From: Burkholderiaceae bacterium | GTDB taxonomy: Bacteria > Pseudomonadota > Gammaproteobacteria > Burkholderiales > Burkholderiaceae_F | DNA: 64,000 nt | Direction: 5' to 3' | NCBI GenBank assembly: GCA_022843955.1 | Contig: JALHMQ010000006.1 | Location: 1-64,000, forward strand | In this document: positions 35,662 through 56,606 of the stretch, piece after piece | How the letters are laid out: each line of letters opens with the position of its first letter | Position numbering within the stretch: position 1 is the stretch's first letter | Translations under genes and position numbers: made by a program | Notes under the pieces: generated by a model | The model's database searches: none | What the model saw: only the letters and a program-made list of their open reading frames with translations | What the model was told of the DNA's origin: nothing

Positions 35662-35743
35662 GTCAGTCCGGAGGATCGGGGCTCGATTCGAGTGGCGGCC
35701 TGCTGTCAGCAGGCCGCCGCCTCGGCGGGCGCGGCAAAGACGA

Positions 35744-37753
35744 TCACGCCGCCGCCTGCTTGGGACCGCGACTGGCGTCGCCGAGTTCTTCCCTGCGCGC
35801 CAACGCCCGGTAGCGGCGGTCAGACATCGCGACAAAACCACCGAGCGCCATCAGCACGCAGCCACCCCAGATCCAGGTCACAAACGGCTTGTAGTAGATG
35901 CGCGCCGTCCAGGCACCGCCGCCCACCGGCTCGCCCAGTGACACATAGACGTCGCCGGTGATGCTGCTGCGGATCGCGGCCTCGGTCATCGGCATCTCCG
36001 ATGCACGCGCGAAGAAGACGCGCTTTTCCGGCTCGAGCGTGTCGATCACGCGCCCCCTGTGCGACAGCGTGAAATTGCCCTGCGCAGCGCGATAGTTGGG
36101 GCCCTCGATTTCCGTGACGCCGTTGAACTTGAAGGTGTACTCGTCGACGGTGATTACCTCGCCCGGGGAGATCTTCACGTCGCGTTCCACCTCGTAGCTG
36201 CGTACCGAGGTGACGCCGACGATGAACACCGCGATCCCCAGGTGCGCGAGGATCATCCCCCACCAGCCGCGCGGCTGCGCCTGTAGCTTCGCCGCCATGC
36301 TCCCTGGCGCATGGCGGATCTGGCGCCGGATCATCTCGAGCGTGGTGACAGCGATCCACGCCGCCATCCAGTAGCCAAAGGCGGCCATCGGCGTCCAGCT
36401 CAGTCGCTCGGGGTCATCGGCCACGGCCACGAACGGCAGCGTCACACCCAGGATCAACGAGATCGCCAGCGCCCACTTGAGCCGCGTCCACAGATCGGGC
36501 AGTTCGGCGCTCTTCCAGCGGGCGATCGGCCCCACACCCATCAGGAACACCAATGGCGCCATCACCGGCACGAACACCGCATCGAAGTACGGCGGACCCA
36601 CCGAGATCTTGCCCATGCCGAGCGCATCGAGGAACAGCGGATACAGCGTGCCGAGCAGCACCGTGCCGGTCGCCACCGCGAACAGCACATTGTTGCCGAG
36701 CAGTAGCGATTCACGCGACAGGCCCTCGAAGCGGCCACCGAGACCGATGCTCGGGGCGCGCCAGGCGAACAGCGCCAGCGACGAGCCGATCACCAGCACC
36801 AGGAAGATCAGGATGAACACGCCGCGCGCCGGATCGGTGGCAAACGCGTGCACGCTGGTCAGCACACCCGAGCGGACCAGGAAGGTGCCCAGCAGCGACG
36901 TCGAGAAGGCGAAGATCGCCAACAGCACCGTCCAGGCCTTGAAGGTGCCACGCTTTTCTGTCACGGCGAGCGAATGAATCAGCGCGGTGCCGATCAGCCA
37001 GGGTACGAAGGACGCGTTCTCGACCGGATCCCAGAACCACCAGCCGCCCCAGCCGAGTTCGTAGTACGCCCACCAGGAGCCCAGCGCGATACCCAGCGTC
37101 AGGAAGCACCAGGCCACCGTGGTCCACGGCCGCGACCAGCGCGCCCAGGCGGCGTCGAGCTTGCCGCCGAGCAGCGCGGCAATGGCGAAGGAGAAAGCGA
37201 CCGAGAAGCCGACATAGCCCATGTAGAGCAACGGCGGGTGGAACACCATGCCCGGGTCCTGCAGCAGCGGGTTCAGGTCCTGCCCCTCGACGGCTGCCGG
37301 GAACATGCGGTCGAACGGGTCGGAGGTGGCCAGCATGAAGGTGATGAAACCGATGGACACCAGCCCCATCACACCGAGCACGCGCGCCACCATTTCCTCA
37401 GGCAGATGGCGACTGAAGATTGCCACCGCCAGGCCCCAGCCCGCCAGCATCAGGACCCACAGCAGCAGCGAGCCTTCGTGCGAGCCCCAGGAGGCGGCGA
37501 CCTTGTACTGCACAGGGAGCAAGGTGTTGCTGTTGGTCGCCACGTTGATCACCGAGAAGTCACTGGTGACGAACGAATAGACCAGGCAGCCCCAGGCGAA
37601 AGCAACGAAGAACGCCTGGCCGAACGCGGCGGGTCGCGCCACCGCCATCCATTCACGCCTTCCCTTGGCGGCGCCGATGATCGGCAGCGTGCCCTGCACG
37701 ACTGCCAGCAGCAGCGCCAGGATCATGGCGAAGTGACCGAGTTCTGGAATCAT
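35744..37753 (-). CDS. ccmF: CcmF, cytochrome c heme ligase core
   Basis: CcmF accepts heme from holo-CcmE and attaches it to apocytochrome c. The 669-residue membrane protein has about fifteen helices, the tryptophan-rich motif GWGGWWFWDPVENASF near residue 235 and the P-His regions (SHEGSLLLWV, FHPPLLYMGYVG). Length equals the family. The 203-bp gap to ccmE upstream shows nothing recognised. Confidence 0.96.
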   Translation of the reverse strand: MIPELGHFAMILALLLAVVQGTLPIIGAAKGRREWMAVARPAAFGQAFFVAFAWGCLVYSFVTSDFSVINVATNSNTLLPVQYKVAASWGSHEGSLLLWVLMLAGWGLAVAIFSRHLPEEMVARVLGVMGLVSIGFITFMLATSDPFDRMFPAAVEGQDLNPLLQDPGMVFHPPLLYMGYVGFSVAFSFAIAALLGGKLDAAWARWSRPWTTVAWCFLTLGIALGSWWAYYELGWGGWWFWDPVENASFVPWLIGTALIHSLAVTEKRGTFKAWTVLLAIFAFSTSLLGTFLVRSGVLTSVHAFATDPARGVFILIFLVLVIGSSLALFAWRAPSIGLGGRFEGLSRESLLLGNNVLFAVATGTVLLGTLYPLFLDALGMGKISVGPPYFDAVFVPVMAPLVFLMGVGPIARWKSAELPDLWTRLKWALAISLILGVTLPFVAVADDPERLSWTPMAAFGYWMAAWIAVTTLEMIRRQIRHAPGSMAAKLQAQPRGWWGMILAHLGIAVFIVGVTSVRSYEVERDVKISPGEVITVDEYTFKFNGVTEIEGPNYRAAQGNFTLSHRGRVIDTLEPEKRVFFARASEMPMTEAAIRSSITGDVYVSLGEPVGGGAWTARIYYKPFVTWIWGGCVLMALGGFVAMSDRRYRALARREELGDASRGPKQAAA

Positions 37754-37956
37754 CGAAGGGTGCTTTCCGTAGACGTGGTTGATGCACTTGATAGACGCCG
37801 CCGGTCAGTGGACCGACGTCTCACAAAACGCTCAGCGCGAATCGAGCGGAGCGAAGCCTCGTCTCGCTCATGCGAGACCGCTCGCCCGCCCTTGCACTTG
37901 GCCGACGGCGCAACACGGAACAATCGAGTCGTCATGCGCCCCAGCCAACGCGCCGA

Positions 37957-38442
37957 TCAGTTGCTCGTCGGCTTGCCGGTGACCTGCGCATTGGCCGGCA
38001 CCTGCAGCGTCTTGCCCGCCTTGTGCGCCTGCTCGACCGCGTGCGCAGCCTCGGGCGGCATGTAGTTCTCGTCGTGCTTGGCCAGCACCTCGGACGCGCG
38101 GAAGACACCGTCTTGGCCGAGTTTGCCGTTGGCAACCACCCCCTGGCCCTCGCGGAACAGGTCGGGCAGGATGCCTTGGTAGCTGACGTTGATGACATGC
38201 GCGGTGTCGGTGACCTTGAAGCTCACCATCACGCCGTCGCGCTTGACGCTGCCTTCCTCCACCAGTCCGCCGATGCGGAACGTGCGGTCCTTGGGCGCCT
38301 TGGCGGCCGCCACATCGGACGGCGAAAAGAAGAACACCAGGTTCTCCTGAAACGCGGACAGGATGAGCGTCGTGGCCACGCCGAGAACGGCGACGCCGCC
38401 GACGATCAGGGCCAGGCGCTTGTGACGCGGTTTCATTGCCAT
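37957..38442 (-). CDS. ccmE: CcmE, periplasmic heme chaperone
   Basis: CcmE binds heme covalently through a histidine and passes it to CcmF. The 161-residue product has an N-terminal helix ([19 protein letters not shown]) and the heme-binding motif [13 protein letters not shown] near residue 122. ATG 38442 follows GGGAG; a second ATG two codons later is possible. It starts 1 bp after the ccmD stop. Confidence 0.95.
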
Positions 38443-38443
38443 T

Positions 38444-38626
38444 TCAGACTCCCTTGCTGACGCCGCGATCGGCGAAATTGCGTGCCTCGGCAAGCGCACG
38501 GCGACGACGGCCGCGCACGAGCACGATCTCGGCCACGATCACCGCGGCACACACCAGGTACGCCCCCCACACAAAGAAGCCGTAGCCACCCATGTTGAGG
38601 AAATTCTCGACACTACCCCATTGCAT
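38444..38626 (-). CDS. ccmD: CcmD, heme exporter small subunit
   Basis: The 60-residue product has one helix ([20 protein letters not shown]) and a basic tail ([13 protein letters not shown]). It matches CcmD, which helps release holo-CcmE from CcmABC. It lies between ccmC and ccmE in the standard order. Confidence 0.92.
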
Positions 38627-38656
38627 CTTGCTTACCTCGAGGAACCGGATTTCGTT

Positions 38657-39418
38657 TCAGCCGCGCGGTGCGCGTACCAGGTCGGTGACCCACTGTGCGC
38701 GCTTCTCGCGCTCGAGGATCAGGGCACGCACCCGCAGCAGCACCATGCCAATCGCATACGCCCAGAACGCGAACACCATGACCATCAAGCCGGTGAGCAT
38801 GATGTCGGCCATTGATGAGCCGCCGGGCTTGATGCTGGCGCCCTGGTGCAGCGTGTTCCACCACTTGACCGAAAAATAGATGATCGGCACGTTGACCACG
38901 CCGACCAGCGCCAGCACGGCGGAGGCCTTGTCGGCCCGGCGCGGATCGTCGATGGCGGCCTGCAATGCCATGTAGCCGAAGTAGAGGAACAGCAGGATCA
39001 GCGTCGACGTCAGCCGTGCATCCCACACCCAGTAGGCGCCCCAGGTCGGCCGGCCCCACAGGGCACCGGTCCACAGCGAAACGAACGCCATGATCGCCCC
39101 GGTCGGCGCAATTGCGCTGGCCATGATCGATGACAGCCGCGTGTTGAACGCCAGGCCGATGCCTGCCCAGAACGCCATGACGAGATACAGGAACATCGCC
39201 ATCCAAGCCGATGGCACGTGGATGAAGATGATCCGGTACGAGTCACCCTGCTGCGCATCGACCGGCGCAACGAAGAAACCGATATACAGGCCGATCGCGG
39301 CCAGCAGGCCGCCGATCGCCAGAAACCAGGGCGCGAGCTTGCCCGCGAGCGGGTAGAACAGGTGCGGCGCGCTGTAGCGGAACAGGCTGAAGCCCGCGGG
39401 TGCGGCGACGGAGTTCAT
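38657..39418 (-). CDS. ccmC: CcmC, heme-handling membrane protein
   Basis: CcmC loads heme onto CcmE. The 253-residue product has six helices, the tryptophan-rich motif WGAYWVWDARLTS near residue 128 and flanking periplasmic histidines (FIHVPSAWMAM, WWNTLHQGASI). Upstream, the 241-bp gap to ccmB holds three degenerate repeats of CGGTTG type (39437-39475) but no gene. Confidence 0.95.
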   Translation of the reverse strand: MNSVAAPAGFSLFRYSAPHLFYPLAGKLAPWFLAIGGLLAAIGLYIGFFVAPVDAQQGDSYRIIFIHVPSAWMAMFLYLVMAFWAGIGLAFNTRLSSIMASAIAPTGAIMAFVSLWTGALWGRPTWGAYWVWDARLTSTLILLFLYFGYMALQAAIDDPRRADKASAVLALVGVVNVPIIYFSVKWWNTLHQGASIKPGGSSMADIMLTGLMVMVFAFWAYAIGMVLLRVRALILEREKRAQWVTDLVRAPRG

Positions 39419-39660
39419 GGGTCAGGGTGCAGTCGAGAGTCGGTTGCAAAGACGGTTGTGAGAGCGGTTGCGAATGTCGCGTCCGGGCCGGATTGTCCTC
39501 GTTGGCGCGGGACTGTAACGGCGTCCGTTACCGGATCCTTGACTTCTGTCAGCCCCGCCTGCTCAACCCGGGGAAGTACGAGGGAAACGCTGTGCCCTCC
39601 GCGCGGCGCCAACGGGCCGACCTTGGACCCGCCTCGGCACGAAACATTCCGCGACCCGGG

Positions 39661-40338
39661 TTACTCCATTGAAATTCGCAGTGCAGCGCCCACGGCCCAG
39701 GGCGCCAGCACCGCCGCTCCGAGCGACAAGGCGCCCAGTAGCAGCAGATGGCCTTGCGGCGAGATGCCGCCGGCCGTCGCCTCGACGGCGCCAGCTCCAA
39801 AAATCAGCACCGGCACGTAAAGCGGCAAGACCAGCAGGGTTATCAGCACGCCGCCGCCGCGCAAGCCCAGCGTCAGCGCCGCGCCCACTGCGCCGATCAG
39901 CGACAGCGCGGGCGTGCCCAGAAGCAGCGACACCACCATGATGCCGATGCTGTCGGCATGCAGGTCGAACATGATCCCGAGCAGCACCGACATGACGGTG
40001 ATGGGCAGGCCGGTCACCAGCCAATGCGACGCGCACTTGGCCAGCACGATCAGCACCAGCGGTTCGCCGGTCAGCAGCATCTGCTCGAGGGTGCCGTCGG
40101 CATGGTCATTGGCGAACAGACGCCCGAAGGACAGCAGGGCCGCCAGCAGCGCGGCCACCCAGATGATGCCGGGGGCAATGCGGCGCAGGGTGTCGGTTTC
40201 CGGTCCGACGCCGAGCGGCACCATGGTGACGACCACCAGGAAGAACAGCAGCGTATTGGTCACGTCGGCGCGCTGCCGCGCCGCCAACAGCAGGTCGCGC
40301 CGAAGCACGGTGCCGATGGTCCCGATCATGCCGCTCAC
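39661..40338 (-). CDS. ccmB: CcmB, heme exporter permease
   Basis: The 225-residue membrane protein with six helices matches CcmB (LLLAARQRADVTNTLLFFLVVV, LFANDHADGTLEQ, LAKCASHWLVTGLP). The start is taken at GTG 40338, overlapping the ccmA stop as GTGA; ATG 40329 is possible. With CcmA it forms the ABC unit that powers release of heme-loaded CcmE. Confidence 0.94.
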   Translation of the reverse strand: MSGMIGTIGTVLRRDLLLAARQRADVTNTLLFFLVVVTMVPLGVGPETDTLRRIAPGIIWVAALLAALLSFGRLFANDHADGTLEQMLLTGEPLVLIVLAKCASHWLVTGLPITVMSVLLGIMFDLHADSIGIMVVSLLLGTPALSLIGAVGAALTLGLRGGGVLITLLVLPLYVPVLIFGAGAVEATAGGISPQGHLLLLGALSLGAAVLAPWAVGAALRISME

Positions 40339-40967
40339 GCCGTCGCCTCCACGGCCTTCAGATCGAGCCGCTTGACCGAGCCTGGCAAGGGGACATCCTG
40401 ATGGGTGGTCAGCACGACGATGCCATCGCGCTTGAGATGGTCGCCGATCAAGCCCGACAGCACGCCCACGCCGCGCACGTCCAACGCGGTGAACGGTTCA
40501 TCGAGGATCCATAGCGGCGCCTCCTTGGCGAAGAACAGGCGCGCCAGGGCGACGCGCCGCTTCTGCCCCTGGGAGAGCGACCGTGCCAGAGACGACTCGA
40601 AGCCGCCGAGGCCAAGTGCTGCCAGCGCCGCCGCCGCTTCGGCCAGTGACCCGCTACGGCCGGCGATACCAGCGGCAAAGTGCACGTTCTCCAGCGCCGA
40701 CAGATCGTCCTTGACGCCGTTCAGGTGGCCCACGTAGGCGAGCGCCGACCAGAACTCCTCGCGCAGTGTGCGGGTGCTGGTGCCTTTCCAGCGAACGTCG
40801 CCGGCGGTCGGGCTCATCAGGCCGCACAGGATGCGCAGCAGGCTCGTCTTGCCGGCGCCATTTTCGCCGGCGATATGCAGGCAGGTGCCGGCATCGACGC
40901 GGAACGTGAGGCCGCGAAACAGCAGCCTTTCGCCACGAACGCACTCCAGATCGATCGTTTCGAACAT
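40335..40967 (-). CDS. ccmA: CcmA, cytochrome c maturation ATPase
   Basis: The 210-residue ABC ATPase has Walker A GENGAGKTSLL near residue 35, signature SLSQGQKRRVALAR near 130 and Walker B LWILDEPFTALD near 152. It leads the nine-gene ccm operon. The 300-bp space between it and the mtrB stop must contain the ccm promoter; no FNR palindrome was found there. Confidence 0.95.
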   Translation of the reverse strand: MFETIDLECVRGERLLFRGLTFRVDAGTCLHIAGENGAGKTSLLRILCGLMSPTAGDVRWKGTSTRTLREEFWSALAYVGHLNGVKDDLSALENVHFAAGIAGRSGSLAEAAAALAALGLGGFESSLARSLSQGQKRRVALARLFFAKEAPLWILDEPFTALDVRGVGVLSGLIGDHLKRDGIVVLTTHQDVPLPGSVKRLDLKAVEATA

Positions 40968-41267: not shown

Positions 41268-43457
41268 TCAACGCCAAGTGTAGGTGTACGTGATGCCGAG
41301 GAAGGTGACGTTCTGCAGCTGAAGTTGCGAGACCGTCGAGTTGTCGCTGTAGAGGAACGGCACGCCGCCGTAGCCGTAGCTCCAGTCGTCGTACTTGGCG
41401 CGCTGGTGAATCGCATCCAGCCGCAGCGCCGAGTTGTCGCTCAACGCATAGCGCCCATACAGGCGCAGCTCGGTGCGACGGAAGACGATGTCGGGCAACC
41501 CACCGCTGGCGGCCAGCAGCGCCGCGGAACTGGCGCCGGCACCCGGATCGAGCGATTGCGCGTAGACGTTCTTGTCGTTGATGAACGACAGGCCGCCGCC
41601 GACATCGATCGTCTCCGACGGCTTGCCGACGACGCCGAAACCTGCGCTCGTGCTCTTGTTGTCGAACGCCAGCACGTAGCCCGCCGGGCGCGCCTGGTTG
41701 AGCTTCTGGTTGCCCTGCGACAGGTAGCCGTTGAGGCTCCATTCTTCAGACAACACGTAGTTGGCATCGAGGCTGTAGAAACTCACCTTGGTGTCGCGCA
41801 GCGCATAGGCGGTCGGCGCGGTGTACTCGTCCTTGCCCTGCTCGGCGCTGATCTGCAGCGAGAAGCTCTCGGTCGCCTGCCAATTGCCGTTCAGGCGGAT
41901 CTTGTCGCGCTGACGGTCCATTTGCGTCGGCATGAATATCTCGTCACCGACAAATGGCGTGACGACCTCGATCACGCCGCGGCCCGTGTTCGACGGCCGC
42001 AGCCAGGCCGAGCCGTCGCGCTTGGCGCTGATGTAGGCGATCGAGCCGCTGAAATTGGTTGTCATCTGGCGGCGCAACTCGGCACGCCACGCGGTCTCGT
42101 CGGTGTCCTGTCGCAAGGCGCTGACGCCGCGCGAGGCGCTGGTGGCGGTGTACGACCCGCGGTCGATCGACTCCTGGTCGAAGCCCACGGTGGCCGCGTA
42201 GCTGCGGGCGAATCGATACGTGCCCTGCAGCTTGTTGCGCACGCGCACGTAGTCGAAGGCACGATTGGTGAAGAGCGCGGTGCCTTCGACGCCATAGTTG
42301 GCCAGCGGCGTCTTGTCTTCGCGGTCTTCGAACTTCGATTCGGCGATCACCGTCAGCTGCGGCAGCGGACGGGCCGACAGACCCAGTTGCGCAGTGGTCG
42401 TATTGACCTTGCCGTTCAGATTGGTCACACCGGCGGGGGCGCCGGTCAGGCCGGCGCCGGCGAAGTCCTGGTCCTGGCTGGCACGCGCATGCGCAACCTT
42501 GAAGGTGGCGCGAGAAGTCGGCGTGATGACGAAGTTGCCGCCCACATCGAATTGATGCACCTGGTTGTCCGGCGGCAGTGCGACCGGCTGCGTGAGGATG
42601 GTCTGCAGTCCGGCACTGAGCGGCAACGGCGCGCCGACCGGATTGTTGAGCGTGGCCGGCACACCCGGATTGAGCGAGCCGTTCGAGTTGCTGTAGAACG
42701 AGCCGTAGTAGCCGCCATTGAGCCGTAGGCGCGCGCCGGCGTAGGTCAGGCGAGTTTCGACCTGGCTGTGGTTGGAGTTGATCGGCTCGGGAACCGCGAG
42801 CACGGCAAAGCCGGTACTGGTCGCGGTGGTCGGCCCGCAGGCCGGAGCGACCGTCGACGGACAGGTGATGCCGAGGCCGAACAGGCGCGAGCCGTCCTTG
42901 TTCTCGCTCTTGGCGTCGAGCGACAGTTCGAGCGTGGAGGTGATCCACTTGGCTGCGCCGAGACCGATCGCCTTGCGCTTGGTCTCGAGGTCGAAGTTGG
43001 GACCGGTGCCGGGCACGCCGCCCCAGTATTGCAGCTGCGGGGTCGTGGTCCCGAGGCCGATGCCGACACTGTTGAGCGTGTAGGGATCGCGTCGTACCAG
43101 TTCGCCATAGCTAGCCGCCAGCCGCCAGTTGCCCTGCTTGGCCCAGAGCAGTCCCAGCTCGCGCGTATCCATTGCGAGATTGCTGCCGTAGAACTCCACC
43201 AGCGACCCGGTGGCGTTGTTGCGGCGGATGTAGTCGACGCCGAGCAGGCCATAGGCCTTGCTGTCGCGCATGCCGTTGTACTGGCCGAAGAGCGCGCGAT
43301 CTGCGGCGTCTCCAGTGACGCCGGCGGCACCGGCAGTCACCGAAATCTCGGCGATCTGCGCTTCTTCGTCTTCAGCCTGAGCCGGGCCGAAGGCCGAGAG
43401 AACCGCGACAGCAACAGCGGTCGGGGCAAAACGGAACTGCCGAACAAACGAGTTCAT
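41268..43457 (-). CDS. mtrB: MtrB/PioB-family decaheme-associated outer-membrane barrel
   Basis: MtrB-type proteins form a 26-strand barrel that sheathes a decaheme cytochrome and so carries electrons through the outer membrane. The 729-residue product has a signal peptide (cut at AQAED, residue 28), strand-rich sequence throughout and the C-terminal signature ITYTYTW-R. Typical blocks are YNGMRDSKAYGLLGVDYIRR and ELGLLWAKQGNWRLAASYGEL. The N-terminal CXXC found in Shewanella MtrB is absent; the only cysteines are CPSTVAPAC near residue 203. It follows the decaheme gene by 15 bp. Confidence 0.92.
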   Translation of the reverse strand: MNSFVRQFRFAPTAVAVAVLSAFGPAQAEDEEAQIAEISVTAGAAGVTGDAADRALFGQYNGMRDSKAYGLLGVDYIRRNNATGSLVEFYGSNLAMDTRELGLLWAKQGNWRLAASYGELVRRDPYTLNSVGIGLGTTTPQLQYWGGVPGTGPNFDLETKRKAIGLGAAKWITSTLELSLDAKSENKDGSRLFGLGITCPSTVAPACGPTTATSTGFAVLAVPEPINSNHSQVETRLTYAGARLRLNGGYYGSFYSNSNGSLNPGVPATLNNPVGAPLPLSAGLQTILTQPVALPPDNQVHQFDVGGNFVITPTSRATFKVAHARASQDQDFAGAGLTGAPAGVTNLNGKVNTTTAQLGLSARPLPQLTVIAESKFEDREDKTPLANYGVEGTALFTNRAFDYVRVRNKLQGTYRFARSYAATVGFDQESIDRGSYTATSASRGVSALRQDTDETAWRAELRRQMTTNFSGSIAYISAKRDGSAWLRPSNTGRGVIEVVTPFVGDEIFMPTQMDRQRDKIRLNGNWQATESFSLQISAEQGKDEYTAPTAYALRDTKVSFYSLDANYVLSEEWSLNGYLSQGNQKLNQARPAGYVLAFDNKSTSAGFGVVGKPSETIDVGGGLSFINDKNVYAQSLDPGAGASSAALLAASGGLPDIVFRRTELRLYGRYALSDNSALRLDAIHQRAKYDDWSYGYGGVPFLYSDNSTVSQLQLQNVTFLGITYTYTWR

Positions 43458-43472
43458 TGTCGCGCTCCAGTC

Positions 43473-44429
43473 TCAGCGGAACAGGTAATGGGGCGTCGGA
43501 TTGGAGGCCGCCGGGTTGTTCGAGCCGTGGACCTGCGTATGGCAGTTCATGCAGCTGCGACCCTGCCAGATGTTGACGGTGTTCTTGCCCGACGACGTGC
43601 CCGTGACGGCAGAAGAGCCCTGACCGGCCGCAGCGGGCGGGAACACGCCGGGCCGGCCACCCAGCGCACCAATCTCGCCGGCGACATGGGGCGTATGGCA
43701 CTGGTTGCATAGGATCGGCGCACGCGCCTTGAGCATGCCCGGCACGACGCTGCCATGCGGGTTGTGGCAGATCGCGCAGTCCTCGGTGACGGGCTCGTGG
43801 GCGTGAACGAACGGGCCGCGCTTTTCGGCGTGGCAGGTGAAGCAGGTGTCGTTGGTCGAGTCGCGCTTGGCAAGCTTGGGTCCGATCGAGCCATGCGCGT
43901 TATGGCAGTCCGAACAGCTCATCTTGCCTTCGGCCAGCGGATGGCGCGACGGCCGGTTGGCCTCGGTACGCTGCTGCTTGTGGCAGGCATAGCAGACATC
44001 GGCCTCGGTCGCCTTCGCGAGCACCTTGTCTTTGTTGACGTGGATCTGGTGACAGCCGCCGCAGGAGACATCCGAGGCCGGATGCGCGCTGGTGGCCCAG
44101 TGACTGCGCTTGGCGTCCTTCTCGTGGCAGCTCAGGCATACGCCGCTGGCCGCGCTGGCCTCCAGCGCCTGCTCGCCCTCGAAGCTGCGGTCGACCTTGG
44201 CGGCGCGCGGCTTGGCGGCATGGGCGGTACTCGGACCATGACAAGACACGCAGGTCGGCGCCCGAGCATCGCCGGCCACGGCATGCGCGGTCCGGTTCAT
44301 CTTTTCCAGATCCTCTTCATGGCACTTCATGCACCGCTTGGACGCCTCGGCATCCATCGCCGCCGACGCACTGCCCAGCAACCCGAACAGGCCAAGACAG
44401 ATGGCCGCCAATGCACGCTTGATCCGCAT
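43473..44429 (-). CDS. mtrA: Periplasmic decaheme cytochrome c, MtrA/DmsE family
   Basis: This family inserts into the MtrB barrel and relays electrons between periplasm and cell surface. The 318-residue product has a signal peptide (cut at ASAAM, residue 24) and ten heme sites: CMKCH, CVSCH, CLSCH, CGGCH, CYACH, CSDCH, CFTCH, CAICH, CNQCH and CMNCH. Length and spacing match MtrA/MtoA/PioA/DmsE. ATG 44429 follows a GGGG ribosome site. The direction of electron flow (metal reduction or iron oxidation) cannot be read from the sequence. Confidence 0.94.
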   Translation of the reverse strand: MRIKRALAAICLGLFGLLGSASAAMDAEASKRCMKCHEEDLEKMNRTAHAVAGDARAPTCVSCHGPSTAHAAKPRAAKVDRSFEGEQALEASAASGVCLSCHEKDAKRSHWATSAHPASDVSCGGCHQIHVNKDKVLAKATEADVCYACHKQQRTEANRPSRHPLAEGKMSCSDCHNAHGSIGPKLAKRDSTNDTCFTCHAEKRGPFVHAHEPVTEDCAICHNPHGSVVPGMLKARAPILCNQCHTPHVAGEIGALGGRPGVFPPAAAGQGSSAVTGTSSGKNTVNIWQGRSCMNCHTQVHGSNNPAASNPTPHYLFR

Positions 44430-44627
44430 TCGAATCCCCTCAAGAGCCTGACTTCGACAAGATCAAGCCACCGCAAGCGCGGCGCAGACCCCATCCGTGG
44501 CAATGATCGTTGTCGACAAGTTCGCTACCAGCCTGCACGCGCCTCGCGGCACACGGCCTGCTCCGGCACGTTCCTCAACCCAGCCGGTCCGGGGCGGTGA
44601 TCGCCGCCCCGTGCCTTGCTGGTCCAT

Positions 44628-47183
44628 CTATCTTTGTCCGTGCGCCACGTCCACGCCCTTGAAGTTGCCGGGTGCGTGGCAGTCATCGCACGTCTCGCGC
44701 GGCGCACTGAACAGCTGCCCCTGCGTGATGGTGCCGAACGACGAGCCGCCGAAATTGATCACGTGGTCGATCGCCTGCTTGCTGTCGTGGCAGGCCGTGC
44801 AGGTCGCCGCTTTGGGCGAGATGACGCGCCAGTCAAGCGGGTCCGTCCCGGCACGCAGCGGCGTGGCCGTGCCCACCAGCGGCTTGGTCACGACAGAGCC
44901 GAGCTGGCCGAGGTCGCGCTTCCACGAGTCGTTCACATGGCAGCCGTTGCAGGTCAGGCCCACCGACGGATAGGCGACTTCGGCAGCGTAGTTCTCGACC
45001 CCCGCCCCGAACGGCGTTCCAGCCAGCACCTGCGTCACGGTGGCGAACGGCAACTGCAGCGTACCCAGCGGCGCCGCGGCGGCGGTGCCGGATGCGAATC
45101 CATTGGCGAGGAGCAGGCCAGTCTTGATGTCGAACTCGCCGATCACGGTGTTGCCGTGCGTGAACGGATAAGTCCGTCGCGAGTTGCCGTGGATGCCGTG
45201 GATCATCCGCTTGAACGAGTAGTTTTCGCTCAGCGCCATACCATTGGTCATCACCGTCGACGAGAACCTGTTCTGGTCGTGGCACAGGGCGCAGGACTCG
45301 ACCGTGTTGCGGGCGCCCCCGTGGAACGCGTTCGCCAGCGTGTTGGAGCCGGACGTCGTGCCGAGCGCACCGTGGCACACATTGCACTTCTCGTTCGAGA
45401 CCACCTGGCGGCGCGGGTTCAGTTCACCGCTCAAGGCCACGTCGGCGAACGTGTGCTGCACCACCGTGTTGACCAGCACCGTCGGCACGATCGGCGGGCG
45501 CGGATCGGTCGCGGACCGCACGTCGAGCTTGGCCTCCTTGATTTGCCCGATGCTGATTACGCGCGCCGTGCCCTTGGCGATGGCCGTGGCGGTATCGGCG
45601 GGAATCGGGATCGTCAGCGTGTAGCGGTTGCTGCCGTCATTGGCACCTCTGTATGCAAAGGCGTTGGCGCCGCTGCCGCCGTTGTTGAATGCCGAGAACT
45701 CGGTGATGCGGTCAGGCTGGCCGATGACGTTGGCGTAGGCGACGTAGAAACGCAGGTTGCCGAATCGCGTGCTGTTGCTGCACGTCAGCGTCGCCCCGGC
45801 ACCGGTGCAGTCGGGCGTGACGAGGTTGTAGACCGCGTTGCCGTTGGTCGGATCCGACAGGGAGTACTGCACCGTCACTGCGCGCGCCGTTGCGTCGTAC
45901 GACGTGCGCTCGATGTTCATCTTGTACTTGGCGGCGTTCTCTTCGGTCTGGTTCCAGTGCACGCGGTCGGGTGCCAGGCCGGTACCGGGGCGATGGCAGG
46001 CGGCGCAGTCGCGATTCGGAATGTCGGCGATGACGGCGGTCGGTCCGATCAGACCCTGTGCGATCAGCGTGTGGCTGACGTAGAAGCTCGAGCCTGGCTT
46101 GTCCGAGTGGCAGGTGGCGCAGGCCTCCTTCGACGCACTGGTCTTCCACAAGTCGCCCTGCGGCGTGTTGGGGTTGGCGGCCGTGTGGCAGACACTGCAA
46201 TTGCGCAGGTCCTGCGGGTAGCCGACTTCGGTGTAGTCGTGCAAGGAATTCCTGAAACCCCAGATCTTGTACTCCTCGCCGCCCTGGCCGGCATCGAACT
46301 GCGACTTGAGCAGGCGACCGGCGTGAATCTTGTGCGTCATGGTCGACATCGTCAGCACGTTGCCGCTGTTGGCGTCGAAGGTGGACGGGTTGTGACACAT
46401 CACGCAGTACTGCACGTCGACCCGGCCGCCGCCGTGAATTGCCAGCTTGTCGTGGCAGCCGTTACAGGAAGCGGTGTCGGCCATGACGCGGGTCTTGGCC
46501 TGATCCGTCACCGGCACCGACCTGCCGTTGGCATCGAACGTCACATCGAAGTACGGATTCACCAGGATCTGCTCACCCGCCCGGTTCGTGTACGACAGCT
46601 GGATCGCAATCCGATGGGTGCGGTTGGGTTCGAACACCACGCCGCTGGTACTTGCGGGATTGGTGATATTGGTACTGAAGGTATAGGTGTAGTAGCCGTC
46701 CGGGTTGAACACCAGCTGGTTGGACAAGCCGGCCGGCTTCGGATCGTTGGTCGCCTGTAGCGCGGTCGGCAAGACCGGGTTGCCGCCCGGACCCACGCCT
46801 GCGGTGGCGGTTTCCGTGCGGTAGACGTAGCTGACCCAGCGATCGATATCGCCGTTGGCGCCCGGCACCAGTTTCGCGATCGCGAAACTCACGTTGCTCA
46901 GCACGAGGTCGCGCTTGGCCAAGCCATCGGAGAACACCGCGAAGTTCACCACCGGCGCGCCGTTGACGATCACCGCCGGCACGCCCGCGCCTTGCAGGAC
47001 CTTGAACGCCGAACTCGAATTGGTGGCGGTGTCATTGGCAGGGAGTGCCGCAGCAGCCGCAATCGTCTGCCCGACCGGCGTGGTCGCAGGCGGCGGTGCT
47101 GATGGGTCGCTCCCGCCACCGCACCCGGTCACGGTTGCCAGGACCAGGGCCGCAGCCCCCAACCACTTCATCGAAGAGTTCAT
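44628..47183 (-). CDS. OmcA/MtrC-family decaheme surface lipoprotein
   Basis: OmcA and MtrC sit on the cell surface and pass electrons to minerals or shuttles. The 851-residue product has a lipoprotein signal (LATVTGCGGGSD, lipid Cys near residue 21), Ig-like strand domains, and ten heme sites in two groups of five: CNGCH, CVMCH, CSVCH, CATCH, CAACH, then after about 190 residues CNVCH, CALCH, CNGCH, CTACH, CDDCH. ATG 47183 is chosen because GGAG lies 6 nt upstream and the lipobox follows at normal distance. It leads omcA-mtrA-mtrB; the 198-bp gap to mtrA shows nothing recognised. Confidence 0.92.
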   Translation of the reverse strand: MNSSMKWLGAAALVLATVTGCGGGSDPSAPPPATTPVGQTIAAAAALPANDTATNSSSAFKVLQGAGVPAVIVNGAPVVNFAVFSDGLAKRDLVLSNVSFAIAKLVPGANGDIDRWVSYVYRTETATAGVGPGGNPVLPTALQATNDPKPAGLSNQLVFNPDGYYTYTFSTNITNPASTSGVVFEPNRTHRIAIQLSYTNRAGEQILVNPYFDVTFDANGRSVPVTDQAKTRVMADTASCNGCHDKLAIHGGGRVDVQYCVMCHNPSTFDANSGNVLTMSTMTHKIHAGRLLKSQFDAGQGGEEYKIWGFRNSLHDYTEVGYPQDLRNCSVCHTAANPNTPQGDLWKTSASKEACATCHSDKPGSSFYVSHTLIAQGLIGPTAVIADIPNRDCAACHRPGTGLAPDRVHWNQTEENAAKYKMNIERTSYDATARAVTVQYSLSDPTNGNAVYNLVTPDCTGAGATLTCSNSTRFGNLRFYVAYANVIGQPDRITEFSAFNNGGSGANAFAYRGANDGSNRYTLTIPIPADTATAIAKGTARVISIGQIKEAKLDVRSATDPRPPIVPTVLVNTVVQHTFADVALSGELNPRRQVVSNEKCNVCHGALGTTSGSNTLANAFHGGARNTVESCALCHDQNRFSSTVMTNGMALSENYSFKRMIHGIHGNSRRTYPFTHGNTVIGEFDIKTGLLLANGFASGTAAAAPLGTLQLPFATVTQVLAGTPFGAGVENYAAEVAYPSVGLTCNGCHVNDSWKRDLGQLGSVVTKPLVGTATPLRAGTDPLDWRVISPKAATCTACHDSKQAIDHVINFGGSSFGTITQGQLFSAPRETCDDCHAPGNFKGVDVAHGQR

Positions 47184-47850: not shown

Positions 47851-48147
47851 CTATTGGGTGAGCACCCAGGCCATGATTGCCTTCATGTCGGCGTCGCTCT
47901 TCACGCCCTTGAGGTCGTCCGCCTCATGCGCCTCTTTCATCTTTGCGACCGCCTTGTCGCCACTGAGACCGGCCTTCTTGAAGTCGGCGGCCGACGTCTT
48001 GAACGCCGGTCCCTTCTTCTTCTTGTCGACGGTGTGGCACTTCAAGCAGCCAGCATCCTTCGCCAGTGCCTGACCGTCCTGTGCCTGCGCCATGCCCGTC
48101 AGAGAAATCAAGCTGGCAGCCAGCGTGGTGATCATCAGTTTCTTCAC
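47851..48147 (-). CDS. Small periplasmic class I cytochrome c
   Basis: The 98-residue product has a signal peptide (cut at AQAQD, residue 22), one heme site GCLKCHTVDKKKKGPAFK and the class I C-terminal helix DADMKAIMAWVLTQ, with Met in that region as likely axial ligand. GTG 48147 follows GGAGG by 4 nt. It shares CLKCHxxDKKKKG with the cytochrome at 60452, so the two are paralogues. The location between the omcA cluster and an FNR-type site suggests a soluble electron carrier for anaerobic pathways. Confidence 0.9.
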   Translation of the reverse strand: MKKLMITTLAASLISLTGMAQAQDGQALAKDAGCLKCHTVDKKKKGPAFKTSAADFKKAGLSGDKAVAKMKEAHEADDLKGVKSDADMKAIMAWVLTQ

Positions 48148-48314: not shown

Positions 48315-48439
48315 GCCACGTCCGCGCGCCCCGCTCACCATAGCCTTGTCGCGTCGGTGCGAGCCGCACGATGTTGCGAAGTTGCCAGTGTGCATCGCAA
48401 CAATTCCATGCGCGGGCGCGAGCCCGCGGCAGATGCGCA

Positions 48440-48850
48440 ATGCCTCGGTCCGTCACGCTCCCCCGGACCGGCTCGGTCAGCGCCGCAGCCGACAGGGCGA
48501 TTGCGTGCGTGCTGCAGGCCGAACGCGATGCGCGTGTCGCCGTACGGGCCTGCGAACAGCAAAGCGAAAGCGAAGTGCAGGCTGCGCGCGAGCGCGCGCG
48601 CGTGATCGCCGAACGGGCCGCCGTGCGTGTCACGCGCGTCCACCGCGCGGTCGAAGCGCGACTTGACGCGGCCCTTGCGCGCATCGATGCCCAACGCACC
48701 GTACTGGCGACGGTCGTCAACGACGCGCCCGCCGATCCGGCCCGCCTGGCCGCCGCCGTGCAAGCGCTGGCGCATGAGTTGACGCACGAACCGGGAGCCT
48801 TGGCGCAGGTCGCCCGGGCGCCGACCCCGATCACCGAGGCCGCGACATGA
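48440..48850 (+). CDS. V/A-type ATPase peripheral-stalk coiled-coil subunit
   Basis: The 136-residue product is mostly one charged helix (LQAERDARVAVRACEQQSES, then EVQAARERARVIAERAAVRV), the form of the G/H stalk subunit that pairs with subunit E in V/A-type ATPases. Identification rests on shape and position as first gene of the cluster; sequence alone is too low in complexity. ATG 48440 is taken from the start of the conserved-looking frame. The stop overlaps the next start (ATGA). Confidence 0.65.
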   Translation: MPRSVTLPRTGSVSAAADRAIACVLQAERDARVAVRACEQQSESEVQAARERARVIAERAAVRVTRVHRAVEARLDAALARIDAQRTVLATVVNDAPADPARLAAAVQALAHELTHEPGALAQVARAPTPITEAAT

Positions 48851-49698
48851 TCGACGGACTCACGCTCGACTACGCGGGCAGCCGCGCGATGGCGCGTCTG
48901 GCCTGGCGCCCGGATCAACGCCTGTGGCAGCGCCTGCATGCCGCCAGCAGCCTGCACGCGCTGCTGGAGCGCGCCCGCAGTGCCGCCGTCGGCAACTACC
49001 TGAGCGGCGTCGCGCGCATCGCGGGCTGCGACGATGTGGACGCCGCCTTTCGCGCGCAGTGGCGGGCTCGCGTGGCCGAACTTGCCGGCTGGTCGCCGGC
49101 GCCATGGCGGGCCGCCGTCCGCTGGAGCGCGCACCTTGCCGACGTGAGCGGTGTGGCCCACCTGTGGATCGCCGCACCACTGCGCTGGATGCGCACCGAC
49201 GCGGTGTTCGCCCGCTACGCCGACGGCAACACGGCGATGCGTCGCGTCGCGCTGGCGGCCGGCCCACTGGCACCGCTCGGTCAGGCGCTTGCATCGCTCG
49301 CCGTGAGCGACAGCAATGTCGCCGATGGCGGCGACGTGCGGACGGTGATGCGCACCCCTGGGGCCGAGGTGCAGCCGCGCGCGCTCGCGGCGTGGCTCGC
49401 TCACTGGCGCGCGCTGTGGCCGGCCACGCGTGCCGTCGAACGGGCCGATCTGGACGACCTGGTCGCCCTGACACGCGCGCATCGCCAGCGCTTTGCCGCG
49501 TTGCCGGTGGCCGATACCGGCGCCGCCCGCGAAGCCTTCGCCGAGCGCGTCACCGCGCGACTGCGCGCCGATCCGTCGCGCCCGGTGGCGCTGTTCGCCT
49601 ATCTGATGCTGGTGGCACTCGACCTCGAACGCCTGCGCGCCGAATGCCTGCTGCGCGTGGTCGACGACGGGACCTCGAGACCCGATGAGGCGCCATGA
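48847..49698 (+). CDS. ntpC: V/A-type ATPase subunit C (d-type)
   Basis: The 283-residue alpha-helical product lies between the stalk subunit and subunit I and matches the size and helical, Arg/Ala-rich nature of the C (ac39/d-like) subunit, which links the central rotor to the membrane ring. Motifs are few (MARLAWRPDQRLWQRLH, FAYLMLVALDLERLR), so the call depends largely on context. A 116-bp gap follows it. Confidence 0.65.
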   Translation: MIDGLTLDYAGSRAMARLAWRPDQRLWQRLHAASSLHALLERARSAAVGNYLSGVARIAGCDDVDAAFRAQWRARVAELAGWSPAPWRAAVRWSAHLADVSGVAHLWIAAPLRWMRTDAVFARYADGNTAMRRVALAAGPLAPLGQALASLAVSDSNVADGGDVRTVMRTPGAEVQPRALAAWLAHWRALWPATRAVERADLDDLVALTRAHRQRFAALPVADTGAAREAFAERVTARLRADPSRPVALFAYLMLVALDLERLRAECLLRVVDDGTSRPDEAP

Positions 49699-49814
49699 AC
49701 GCGCGCGGCCGTCATAAGAGCGAATCCCTGAGCGCGCAGCGCGGGCCGTTCGGTTCGCGCGCCGGGCCGCTCACAAGCGCGTCCTGCGCAGCGCGTCGCG
49801 CGGAGGGTCGTTAG

Positions 49815-51740
49815 ATGAGCCTGCGTCCCCGTGCCGCCTGCTGGTTCGAGGTGATCGGCGCGCGCGAGGACGCCTATCTCGCGCTGGAGGCGCTTGCCAA
49901 TGCCGGCTGCGTCGAGATCGAATGGCATGCGACCGATGGCGTGGCCGCCAAGGCGCCCGGCAACGTCGCCGCGCTGCTGAAGGACTACACGCAACTGGCG
50001 CGCCGCCACGGCCGCTACTGGCCGGCTGCGCAACTGCACCTGGGCACCGATGCGCGCTCGCCAGCTGACGCGCTGGCCGCCGGCATCGAGGCGCTTACCG
50101 CCTGGGCGCGTGACGCCGCGCCGCTGATCGCGCAACTGCAGCAGATCGAGGCGACCCGCGCCGATCTCGTGCTCGCCGACCGCGCGCTCGCTGCGCTGGC
50201 CGACAGCGCGATCGATTTCTCGCTGCTCAACCACGGTGATGGTGCCGTCGGTGTGCAGCCGGCCCTGTTCGCGCTGCCCGCCCAGGCCGAAGTGCCGGTG
50301 CCCGACGATGTGCTGACACGCTTCGCGCCGGTGGGCGATGAAACCCTGCTGCTGGCGGTCGGCCCGCCGGCAGCGATCGACGCGCTGGCCGCGTCAGTGG
50401 CCGAAGCCAACGGCCGGCGCGCGCGCTTTCCCGACTGGTTGCAACCCAGCGCGCAGGCCAGCCGGGCGCAGATCGCCGAGCGCAACGCGACGATGGATCT
50501 GCGCGCCAGCGACCTGCGCGCGCAACTGGCGGCACTGAACGAGACCCACCAGGTCGCCGGCGCGCTGGGCGATGTGGCGCGCGCCACCTGGTGCTTCGAG
50601 CACGGCGGCGCGATCAGCCTGGGCGACCGCGAGCACGGCGACGTCTTCGCGCGCCTGACTGGCTGGGCCACCGATCCCGACCGCCTGGTGGCGGCGATCG
50701 AGGCCAGCCCCGGCCGCGCGCTGGTGAACTTTCCGCCGCCGCCGCGCGGTGCGCGGGCGCCACTGGTGCTGGCCAACCCGTGGTGGGTGCGGCCGTTCGA
50801 ATTGTTCCCGCGGCTGGTGGGCATGCCCGGTGCCAGCGGCGCCGATCCGAGCATGCTGCTCGCCTTCGCCGTGCCACTGATGTTCGGCTACATGTTCGGC
50901 GACATCGGCCAGGGCCTGGTACTGGCCGCGGTCGGCCTCGCGCTGTCGCGCCGGCTGCCGGTGCTGCGCCTGCTGGTCCCCTGCGGGCTGTGCGCAGCGT
51001 TCTTCGGACTGGTGTTCGGCAGCGTGTTCTCGATCGAACACCTGTTCGAGCCGTTGTGGCTGCACCCGCTCGCCCATCCGCTGCCGGTGCTGGTGGTGCC
51101 GGTGATCGCCGGCGCCGCGCTGCTCACGCTCGGCCTGCTGCTCGGCCTGCTGCAGGCCTGGTGGCAGCACCAGACGCAGCACTGGTTGCGCGACGAGTTT
51201 CCGGTGCTGGTGGTCTTTCTCGGTGTGCTGCTGGGCGTGGTCAACCCGCTTGGCTGGATCTTGGCAGCGGTCGGGGTAGCACTCGCACTGGCGCTGGGCG
51301 CGTGGCCACCCCTGCCCGCAAGCACGGACGCCTCTGTCGGCGGCCCGACCCTCCTGCGCGCCCCTGAACGGCACCGGCCACTGGCCGCCGCACTCAAGGC
51401 GCTGGGGGCGCTGGTCGAGCACACGCTGCAGGTGCTGATCAACACGCTGAGCTTTGCGCGCGTCGGCGCGTTCGCGCTGGCACACGCCGGCCTGTCATCG
51501 GCGGTGGTGTCGCTCGCGGCCGCCGTCGACAGCCGCTTCGGCTACGTGCTGATCCTCGTGCTCGGCAACCTGCTGATCATCGCCATCGAAGGGCTGGTGG
51601 TGTCGATCCAGACCACGCGCCTCGTGCTGTTCGAGTTTTTTACCCGGTTTTTCAAGGCGGAGGGACGCGAGTTCCGGCCGCTCGTTCCGCCGCCGTCGAC
51701 GCTCGCGTCGGCCGACGCCGGATTCACCCAGGAGAAATAG
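49815..51740 (+). CDS. ntpI: V/A-type ATPase subunit I (a-type)
   Basis: Subunit I holds the ion half-channels. The 641-residue product has a long cytoplasmic N-terminal half with coiled coils (residues 1-310) and seven or eight C-terminal helices, with the family block FAVPLMFGYMFGDIGQGLVL near residue 355 and the essential-Arg/His region NTLSFARVGAFALAHAGLSS near 545. ATG 49815 follows GGAGGG. It is immediately followed by subunit K. Confidence 0.92.
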   Translation: MSLRPRAACWFEVIGAREDAYLALEALANAGCVEIEWHATDGVAAKAPGNVAALLKDYTQLARRHGRYWPAAQLHLGTDARSPADALAAGIEALTAWARDAAPLIAQLQQIEATRADLVLADRALAALADSAIDFSLLNHGDGAVGVQPALFALPAQAEVPVPDDVLTRFAPVGDETLLLAVGPPAAIDALAASVAEANGRRARFPDWLQPSAQASRAQIAERNATMDLRASDLRAQLAALNETHQVAGALGDVARATWCFEHGGAISLGDREHGDVFARLTGWATDPDRLVAAIEASPGRALVNFPPPPRGARAPLVLANPWWVRPFELFPRLVGMPGASGADPSMLLAFAVPLMFGYMFGDIGQGLVLAAVGLALSRRLPVLRLLVPCGLCAAFFGLVFGSVFSIEHLFEPLWLHPLAHPLPVLVVPVIAGAALLTLGLLLGLLQAWWQHQTQHWLRDEFPVLVVFLGVLLGVVNPLGWILAAVGVALALALGAWPPLPASTDASVGGPTLLRAPERHRPLAAALKALGALVEHTLQVLINTLSFARVGAFALAHAGLSSAVVSLAAAVDSRFGYVLILVLGNLLIIAIEGLVVSIQTTRLVLFEFFTRFFKAEGREFRPLVPPPSTLASADAGFTQEK

Positions 51741-52109
51741 ATGCGCCGCCCATCGTTGTCGGTCTTGCTGCCCGCCGGTCTGATCGCCCTGTCCGCGCTG
51801 CTCGCGCTCGGCGGCACGGTGTTCCTGCTCGGCATGTTCCCCACCAGCGCGGGCGCGCAGGCGCCTGCGGCGGCAGCCAGCGTGCCGGCCGAGGCCTGGG
51901 GCTGGGGCCTGATGGCCGCGGCGCTGTCGACCGGGTTGTCGTCGCTGGCCGGCGGCTATGCGGTGGCGCGCCTGGGCACCGCCGCGGTCGGCGCGATGGC
52001 CGAGAAGCCCGAGCTGTTCGGTCGCCTGCTGATCTTCGTCGGCCTGGCCGAGGGCATTGCGATCTACGGCGTGATCATCTCAATCCTGATCCTCAACCGG
52101 CTCGGCTGA
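51741..52109 (+). CDS. ntpK: V/A-type ATPase subunit K (c-ring proteolipid)
   Basis: The 122-residue product has an extra N-terminal hydrophobic segment (LSVLLPAGLIALSALLALGG), a small linker and the two-helix hairpin. The ion-binding carboxylate is the Glu of VGLAEGIAIYG near residue 104. The residue after it is Gly rather than Ser/Thr, which lacks the common Na+-ring signature and points to protons; this is inference. It begins directly after the subunit I stop. Confidence 0.9.
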   Translation: MRRPSLSVLLPAGLIALSALLALGGTVFLLGMFPTSAGAQAPAAAASVPAEAWGWGLMAAALSTGLSSLAGGYAVARLGTAAVGAMAEKPELFGRLLIFVGLAEGIAIYGVIISILILNRLG

Positions 52110-52111
52110 TC

Positions 52112-52453
52112 ATGAAGACGAGCCACGCACTGGCCTTTCTCGGCAACCTGCAGGACGCGGCCGGCTGGCGGCTGGCAGGCGCCTGCGCGGTGACGCCGGA
52201 CCCGGGCGGTGAGGCGCACGCACTGGCGACGCTGCTGGGCACCGCGTCGGTGGTGCTGATGAGCGCCGAGGTCGCCAGCACGCTGCCGCCCGATGTGCTT
52301 GAGCCGGCGCTGACCGCGCTGCATCCACTCGTGCTGGTGCTGCCGGACCACGGCGGCGGGCTGACCGCGGCGATCGATCCCGCCGAGCGCGTGCGACGCC
52401 AGCTCGGCCTCGAGCAGGAACCGGCCGACGTCCAATCGGAAGGCGCACCATGA
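52112..52453 (+). CDS. ntpF: V/A-type ATPase subunit F
   Basis: The 113-residue product has the Rossmann-like pattern of subunit F: ALAFLGNLQDAAGWRLAG at the start, VVLMSAEVASTLPPDV and a C-terminal AIDPAERVRRQLGLE helix. Subunit F binds D in the central rotor. It starts 2 bp after subunit K and overlaps subunit E by ATGA. Confidence 0.82.
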   Translation: MKTSHALAFLGNLQDAAGWRLAGACAVTPDPGGEAHALATLLGTASVVLMSAEVASTLPPDVLEPALTALHPLVLVLPDHGGGLTAAIDPAERVRRQLGLEQEPADVQSEGAP

Positions 52454-53085
52454 ACCTCGAACAGCGCACGGACGCCCTGCTCGCGGTGGTGGAGGCGTAC
52501 CGCCAGGAGCGCTGTGCCGCGCTGCTCGATCCGGCGCGGGCGCAGGCGCGCGCCCAGGTCGCCGCCGCGCTGCGCGAGGCGCGCCGTCGCGTGCGCACGG
52601 CAATCGGCGAGGAACGCAGGCGACTTGCGGCTGTGCTGGCGGCGGCCGAGGCCCAGCTGGCCACCGAGCGGCGACTCACGCTGCAGCGGCGCGCAGCCAC
52701 GCACCTGAAGCACGGCTGGGCGGCGTTGCGCACAGCGCTGCAGGCGCAATGGGACAGCCCCCCCGCGCGCGCGCAGTGGATCGCTGCGCAGTTGTCGCGC
52801 GTGCGCACCGTGCTGCGGCCAACGCAAGACGCAACGCGCGATGACGCCGATCCCTGGGTGCTGATCTGCCCCGCCGGTTGGGCCGTGGCCGAGCGCGAGC
52901 GTGTGGCCGCCACGCTGCTGATGCACGGCGCCCACGCGGTGCACATGATCGACGACCCGCAACTTTCCGCCGGCTTTCGCGTGCAAGCCGGCCACAACGT
53001 GCTGGACGCCACCCTGGACGGCCTGCTGGCCGACCGCGACGCGGTGCAGGGTCGCCTGCTGCAACTGATTGAGGAGCCTGCGTGA
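52450..53085 (+). CDS. ntpE: V/A-type ATPase subunit E (peripheral stalk)
   Basis: The 211-residue product has a long N-terminal helix rich in Arg/Ala/Glu (about 1-85) and a small C-terminal globular domain with GFRVQAGHNVLDATLDGLL near residue 178, which matches the subunit E signature (GG-x-D-like ending). It couples to subunit A by a TGATG junction. Confidence 0.82.
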   Translation: MNLEQRTDALLAVVEAYRQERCAALLDPARAQARAQVAAALREARRRVRTAIGEERRRLAAVLAAAEAQLATERRLTLQRRAATHLKHGWAALRTALQAQWDSPPARAQWIAAQLSRVRTVLRPTQDATRDDADPWVLICPAGWAVAERERVAATLLMHGAHAVHMIDDPQLSAGFRVQAGHNVLDATLDGLLADRDAVQGRLLQLIEEPA

Positions 53086-56582: not shown

Positions 56583-56606
56583 CACTGCACCACTGAGGGG
56601 CGCGCC

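Follow-up and report, generated by a model that had tools for sequence, protein, structure and literature searches.

The window analysed here, namely, the whole stretch of 64,000 nucleotides that opens contig JALHMQ010000006.1 of a Burkholderiaceae bacterium (assembly GCA_022843955.1; G000 below), contains three adjacent minus-strand genes for a putative outer-membrane electron conduit, along with genes for cytochrome maturation, further cytochromes and an ATPase. The relevant features are as follows:

33210–40967, minus strand: ccm cytochrome c maturation genes, ccmA onward (homologues follow mtrB in five relatives)
41268–43457, minus strand: mtrB, an MtrB/PioB outer-membrane barrel of 729 aa (TIGR03509, PF11854, AlphaFold2 model)
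43473–44429, minus strand: mtrA, a DmsE/MtrA-family periplasmic decaheme cytochrome of 318 aa (TIGR03508, CXXCH count)
44628–47183, minus strand: mtrC, a decaheme lipoprotein of the OmcA/MtrC family, predicted to lie at the surface, 851 aa with the ATG at 47183 as start (TIGR03507, lipobox, fold)
47851–48147, minus strand: MtoD-like monoheme cytochrome c, with a likely GTG start, the start being uncertain (best PDB match 4xxl)
48371–57218, plus strand: operon for a V/A-type ATPase, with genes for subunits I, K, A, B and D among its members (PF00137, PF00006 and PF01813 above cut-off)
58822–60177, minus strand: NapC/NirT-type multiheme cytochrome, ImcH-like (PF03264, 30.3 bits, cut-off 24.1)
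60452–60733, minus strand: second MtoD-like monoheme cytochrome c, 93 aa (homologues near the same redox module in relatives)
60835–61707, minus strand: cytochrome b (matches the C-terminal half of fused CbcL/MtoC-type proteins)
61718–62983, minus strand: 11-heme cytochrome c with 11 CXXCH (matches the N-terminal half of fused CbcL/MtoC-type proteins)

The original prediction of a three-gene conduit on the minus strand is borne out by the family assignments. MtrB scores 379.5 bits against TIGR03509 (cut-off 240) and 404 bits against PF11854, MtrA scores 284 bits against TIGR03508 (cut-off 192), and MtrC scores 550 bits against TIGR03507 (cut-off 209), with 10 CXXCH motifs in each of the two cytochromes; three adjacent genes, all above the curated cut-offs, place the trio in the MtrCAB class. 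In a phmmer search of the PDB, MtrA matched chain 6r2q_A at E 1e-60, an entry titled Structure of the Mtr complex, despite which the molecule name given for this chain differs from MtrA; the PDB sequence matches of MtrC are OmcA, MtrF and UndA. Given the ATG start at 47183, MtrC has a lipoprotein signal, with the lipobox VTGC at residues 18–21 and Cys21, and we infer that the protein is placed at the cell surface; it also contains a CX8C pair (459/468) separate from the heme motifs. G000 encodes one MtrB-family protein, one MtrA/DmsE protein above the cut-off, and, on a different contig, a second OmcA/MtrC-family protein above the cut-off. The gene for the latter (L027:7848-10349, contig 27) also encodes a decaheme protein; the surrounding 19 kb that were read contain no match to MtrA or MtrB, and it groups at 100% support with the accessory MtrC copies of G001 and G002 (L038, L067). 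These nearest kin of the contig 27 protein lie within the mtr cluster of two same-genus genomes.

Single-chain models were obtained for MtrB, with AlphaFold2, and for MtrC. The MtrB model (pLDDT 84, pTM 0.79) has 26 long strands, counted manually from the strand listing, and 26 is the number expected of an MtrB barrel, such that the single-chain model is a 26-strand barrel. A fold search with this model gave 6r2q_B as the best solved match (TM 0.75/0.84, E 6e-32; runner-up 1e-10), a chain that phmmer did not recover, yielding no PDB match for MtrB at 0.001. The MtrC model is moderate (pLDDT 68, pTM 0.54) and matches OmcA (4lmh), UndA (3ucp) and MtrC (6qyc), all eight chains at E of at most 0.001 being OmcA, UndA or MtrC. 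Shewanella-type MtrB proteins carry a CXXC near the N-terminus. The window MtrB lacks this motif, as had been noticed originally; it contains no CXXC at all, its sole cysteines being residues 199 and 207. The absence is, however, no special trait of this protein. A CXXC anywhere in the protein is found in only 3 of the 39 aligned MtrB rows, each time at residue 20, within the region of the signal peptide, and, in a wider set, 4 of 57 MtrB proteins have one among the first 160 residues counted from the start of the reading frame. The absence being clade-wide, we rejected it as a clue to function.

Five relatives from the window's genus or family (G001, G002, G004, G011, G013) share the order mtrC-mtrA-mtrB-ccmA, and this conservation, together with the family scores, excludes chance. 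For phylogenetic analysis, a genome scan with MtrA yielded 95 loci of relatives, the best 80 of which were used; 59 of these (L036–L094), each with at least 252 bits to the MtrA profile, form the in-group, and nine of the remaining 21 (L095–L115, at most 230 bits, among the best 80 of 95) served as the outgroup of the MtrA tree. Three loci without a long MtrB are absent from the MtrB tree, and the MtrC tree, built with FastTree, omits open reading frames shorter than 600 aa or encoding less than 7 heme motifs as well as L001–L009, L016–L022, L028–L032 and L101 (most of these duplicate other rows; L008, L009 and L017 do not). In the MtrC tree, L061, a Ramlibacter MtrC that precedes an MtrA, is labelled accessory under a 400-base rule. 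In all three trees, which comprise no named Shewanella MtrCAB, Sideroxydans MtoAB, PioAB or DmsEF sequences, the window groups with L036, L038, L039, L040 and L067, with supports (SH-type, not bootstrap) of 98, 99 and 99% for MtrA, MtrB and MtrC, respectively. The three genes thus do not fall into unrelated branches but share the same six-row clade, and on this point the original prediction stands. Judging from their sequences, they are members of the MtrA, MtrB and MtrC families with one shared history.

In the MtrA and MtrB trees, the window is surrounded by rows that have MtrC, in a group that includes none of the 16 rows labelled as lacking it. Across the 60 MtrA rows (the window and the 59 in-group loci), a core MtrC is present in 37 (in two via a contig-edge fragment), only a divergent one in 5, none within the stretch covered in 16, and 2 are cut off; when the rows are scored for all three proteins, a long MtrB is found in 57, a core MtrC in 35 and the complete set in 32, with several of the misses at contig ends. 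The occurrence of MtrC beside such MtrA and MtrB genes is, accordingly, not rare. These observations bear directly on the notion that an MtoAB or PioAB pair has an unrelated decaheme lipoprotein as its neighbour by chance, to which the MtoD-like neighbour and the MtrB without CXXC lend some appeal. An MtoAB pair consists of MtrAB homologues without MtrC, whereas here mtrC adjoins the pair, shares the six-row clade with mtrA and mtrB, and has counterparts in the rows with the complete set; the tree placement, too, argues against such a pair, and we consider this explanation very improbable. Even less probable, in our estimate, is a DmsEF-type conduit that serves an extracellular molybdoenzyme such as DMSO reductase. 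The best score of MtrA is indeed to the model named DmsE family, which, we presume, also covers MtrA; but an OmcA/MtrC protein is present, and the sole molybdopterin enzyme among the scanned window proteins is NapA (1214 bits), 21 kb away. With DMSO reductase genes absent from the subset of window open reading frames that was scanned, and NapA alone found, a DmsEFAB assignment was rejected.

The neighbourhood, too, is as originally described, with ccmA adjoining mtrB and nrfHA pairs 8.7 kb away, and a nap cluster is present in addition. The ccmA gene (40335–40967) is the next after mtrB, and further ccm genes extend to about 33.2 kb, with homologues arranged in the same order in relatives; the subunit names are presumed from position. 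The two nrfHA pairs occupy 28102–32598, and the nap cluster lies at 16.8–21.7 kb, with NapA, NapG and NapH above and NapD below cut-off. The active-site heme of NrfA is usually bound by CXXCK; both NrfA proteins in the window have five CXXCH and no CXXCK, and both fall far under the NCBIfam NrfA cut-offs, the first, which is the one scanned with Pfam, scoring 410 bits against PF02335. Upstream of mtrC, the small monoheme protein encoded at 47851–48147 has 4xxl, which we take to be MtoD, as its best PDB match (E 3.3e-7) and is, like MtoD, a small monoheme class I cytochrome c encoded beside conduit genes. Its homologues adjoin mtr genes in G013 and G002 and lie farther upstream in G001.

The second group of redox genes begins about 11 kb from mtrCAB, as a separate gene group, and in G011 the two are about 0.7 Mb apart. 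The 11-heme cytochrome, with hydrophobic segments at both its N-terminal and C-terminal ends, and the cytochrome b, which matched formate dehydrogenase gamma models and PF01292 weakly, below cut-off, match side by side and collinearly one fused frame with 8–9 CXXCH in 19 of the 59 loci L036–L094. By architecture, these fused proteins appear to fit the CbcL/MtoC/MtrH family (PMC6295460, in excerpt), the comparison having been made without a named CbcL or MtoC sequence. CbcL and MtoC combine a multiheme c domain and a cytochrome b in one chain; in the window, these are two genes, and the same split state, an 11-heme frame beside a cytochrome b, was found in 10 of 10 genomes of the family that were read. 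Separately, eight MtrA-like loci of Zixibacteria, Calditrichota, Elusimicrobiota and others (L095, L099, L103, L105–L107, L110, L112) encode, near a decaheme gene, cytochromes that resemble the 11-heme one (at least 11 CXXCH in frame), some of them with ImcH-like or cytochrome b matches.

The cytochrome b and MtrB tend to occur in the same genomes. Among 61 relatives, MtrB is present in 11 of the 12 genomes that have the cytochrome b, compared with 4 of the 49 others (both 11, cytochrome b alone 1, MtrB alone 4, neither 45; Fisher 3.6e-8), and, at the level of the order, in 16 of 24 versus 28 of 375 among 399 genomes (16, 8, 28 and 347 in the same categories; Fisher 1.2e-11), P values that overstate the association because the genomes are related and not independent. 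The cytochrome b was counted only above 200 bits, which dropped 3 of 15 genomes among the relatives and 24 of 48 in the order (two of these at 148 and 160 bits), and MtrB was counted at E of at most 0.001, including some matches below cut-off (above it in 13 of 15 and 37 of 44 genomes, respectively). The converse cases are 8 of the 24 cytochrome b genomes in the order, without an MtrB match, and 4 of the 15 MtrB-bearing relatives, without a strong cytochrome b.

The NapC-type protein that accompanies the split module has one transmembrane helix, six CX2CH, one CX3CH and one CX4CH motifs, and no NCBIfam family at 1e-5; it is 32, 33 and 26% identical to proteins of G061, G065 and G064, respectively, that have three transmembrane segments and one CX3CH. 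ImcH combines three transmembrane helices with an atypical CX3CH, and the window protein, judged without a verified ImcH sequence, has the one CX3CH and a single helix; two ImcH homologues with a single transmembrane segment are named in the excerpted text of PMC6295460. At full strength, the NapC-type gene was detected in 6 of the 61 genomes (two of eight matches, which were weak, having been dropped), all six with the cytochrome b and each with a copy beside it (in G004, the neighbouring cytochrome b is partial and lies at the end of a contig), and G013 has a second copy elsewhere; the 61-genome search did not find the gene in G001, G011, G014 or G035. The profile used for the loci was one sequence entered twice. 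A full-length NapC-type gene elsewhere in G000, at C5:273623, could serve instead. The layout of the split pair resembles, we presume, Geobacter CbcBA more than the fused CbcL. CbcBA is reported to act near -0.2 V in Geobacter (PMC12307469, in excerpt).

Between mtrCAB with its MtoD-like gene and this redox module, on the opposite strand, sits the V/A-type ATPase operon. Of its products, A and B score above the NCBIfam V-type cut-offs and D, I and K below, with PF01496 (I) just below cut-off, and the smaller subunits are named by position only. A gene of the chromate-transporter family (57242–58606) lies between the operon and the redox module, and homologues of it, 74% identical, are found near the module or the mtr cluster in G002 and G001. 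Subunit D is above cut-off in 8 of the 61 genomes (one weak match of nine having been dropped), 7 of which have the cytochrome b (Fisher 1.3e-5) and 7 an MtrB match (Fisher 1.0e-4). Of the 7 family genomes that have subunit D, 6 carry ATPase genes in the vicinity of a gene of this system for a multiheme cytochrome or cytochrome b (a partial match in G035); on a short contig of G004, the ATPase is accompanied by two MtoD-like genes only. ATPase genes and a conduit-type gene diverge at close range in G000, G013, G008 and G011, with a similar divergence in G002 between the MtoD-like gene and an ATPase subunit gene at the end of a contig. The layout is nearly repeated in G008, from another genus (85% complete), which has ccmA, an MtrB that falls under the cut-off at 182 bits, an MtrA with 35% identity, all nine ATPase genes, MtoD-like genes (placed differently), and NapC-type, cytochrome b and 11-heme genes, with no chrA match; its best OmcA/MtrC-family match is on a different contig, at E 3.5e-4.

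The association has its exceptions. No subunit D was detected in G001, G002 or G014, despite the presence of MtrB and the split module there; G025 (77% complete) has the split module and the ATPase with no MtrB match, and G046 the ATPase and MtrB with no cytochrome b. In the flanks of at most 10 kb around the best 80 of 95 scan loci, ATPase genes occur in L036 and L067 only, the link not being seen outside the family. We read the proximity of the ATPase and the conduit as a real local association. A bolder proposal, which we regard as unlikely, is that, in this family, a V/A-type ATPase is dedicated to the conduit and joined with it in a single energetic unit. The two gene groups would be co-expressed, in several genomes from a divergent region that they have in common. 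The ATPase would then either synthesize ATP at the low proton-motive force to which a split, CbcBA-like quinol dehydrogenase gives rise close to the energetic limit, or spend ATP on raising external electrons to the level of quinone.

Taken together, these observations make it probable that the locus encodes an MtrCAB-type conduit belonging to the MtrC-bearing clade of Betaproteobacteria, together with the genes for its maturation and for a likely route to the quinone pool. In the proposed arrangement, MtrA would sit inside MtrB, and MtrC would cap the barrel at the cell surface. The electron path would link quinone with a mineral, an electrode or a partner outside the cell by way of either the split CbcL-type complex or the ImcH-like protein, and of the MtoD-like carriers, MtrA and MtrC.

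The direction of this flow is not readable from the sequence: according to the excerpted PMC6295460, the CbcL/MtoC/MtrH family occurs in iron reducers and oxidisers alike. The original argument that a third, OmcA-type subunit implies export does not hold up. One Ramlibacter that carries mtrCAB has been implicated in oxidative electron transfer (PMC8805035, in part), G008 shows the layout without a clear MtrC, and a core MtrC occurs in 37 of 60 rows, so MtrC was rejected as a sign of direction. Uptake, in which electrons from Fe(II), Mn(II), a cathode or a partner cell would enter the quinone pool and pass to nap/nrf or oxygen, is a possibility that we take seriously but hold to be distinctly less than even. 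The MtoD-like carriers and the CbcL/MtoC-type module are consistent with it, as are this Ramlibacter and G008; nap and nrf acceptor systems are nearby, and the V/A-type ATPase could conceivably drive uphill transfer. It is disfavoured by the presence of MtrC and a second MtrC-family gene, by the report of ImcH homologues from reducers only (PMC6295460, in excerpt), the window protein being ImcH-like at best, and by the statement that this Ramlibacter would leave Mn(II) unoxidised when on its own (PMC9040806, in excerpt). Further, RuBisCO proper was not found in G000, where there are RuBisCO-like matches only, the best of which, with 168 bits to DK-MTP-1-P enolase, falls short of the cut-off for that enzyme. 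The two RuBisCO-like proteins (L116 and L117, on contigs 14 and 17) have identical scores for each model, well under the RuBisCO and DK-MTP-1-P enolase cut-offs, and RuBisCO was rejected as an indication of autotrophy. Mainly on account of the failure to find RuBisCO proper and of the ImcH-like character of one inner-membrane candidate, we mildly prefer net export, which seems somewhat likelier than uptake, with a smaller share left to truly two-way flow; the MtoD-like carriers, the occurrence of the CbcL/MtoC family in reducers and oxidisers, the Ramlibacter case and the similar layout without a clear MtrC in G008 count against export.

Betaproteobacterial mtrCAB clusters are already known, accompanied by mtoC and mtoD, with ccmA-I adjoining six of the clusters and with duplications of mtrC (PMC8805035, in part); the trio itself is, therefore, a further member, which widens the known distribution of mtrCAB. 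What looks new lies outside 41268–47183, namely, the split partner, the adjacent ImcH-like cytochrome, and the V/A-type ATPase between this module and mtrCAB, an arrangement the parts of which recur in relatives and the whole in G008. In the open-licence papers searched, to the extent of their excerpted text, we found no mention of the split partner, the ImcH-like gene or the link to the V/A-type ATPase, nor anything that joins a V-type ATPase to Mtr. The wider locus offers a near-complete candidate chain that reaches from quinone to the cell surface, in a family of Betaproteobacteria of which the closest named representatives here are metagenome assemblies, and the split CbcL-type complex could be purified subunit by subunit. 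Should the link to the V/A-type ATPase prove functional, the energetics of extracellular respiration would be tied to a particular ATPase, and the question of direction would become testable.

Compared with Shewanella MtrCAB, the window has three subunits of the same families, a lipoprotein MtrC and the same MtrB fold; it differs in its MtrB without the N-terminal CXXC and in having no full-length CymA-type gene beside the trio, the NapC-type matches in the window being NrfH and the ImcH-like protein. With MtoAB of Sideroxydans and Gallionella, it shares an MtoD-like carrier and a CbcL/MtoC-type partner, whereas MtrC is present here, and the trees, with no named MtoAB among their sequences, set the window with the MtrC-bearing rows, away from the 16 rows labelled as lacking MtrC. 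Both halves of the split module match fused proteins of the architecture of the CbcL/MtoC/MtrH family (PMC6295460, in excerpt) but are encoded by two genes, with 11 hemes in the c part. The ImcH-like protein has the NapC/NirT-like start and the CX3CH motif of ImcH but one transmembrane helix instead of three, and the published ImcH genes, according to the same excerpted paper, were not found beside mtrAB. The window also resembles the clusters of Groups 3 and 4 of PMC8805035, as described in the available part of that paper, in which mtrC, mtrA, mtrB, an mtoD-like gene and ccm genes lie side by side as they do here, with accessory mtrC genes in relatives of the window; compared with those clusters, the inner-membrane partner in the window is split and is joined by an ImcH-like cytochrome and a V/A-type ATPase.
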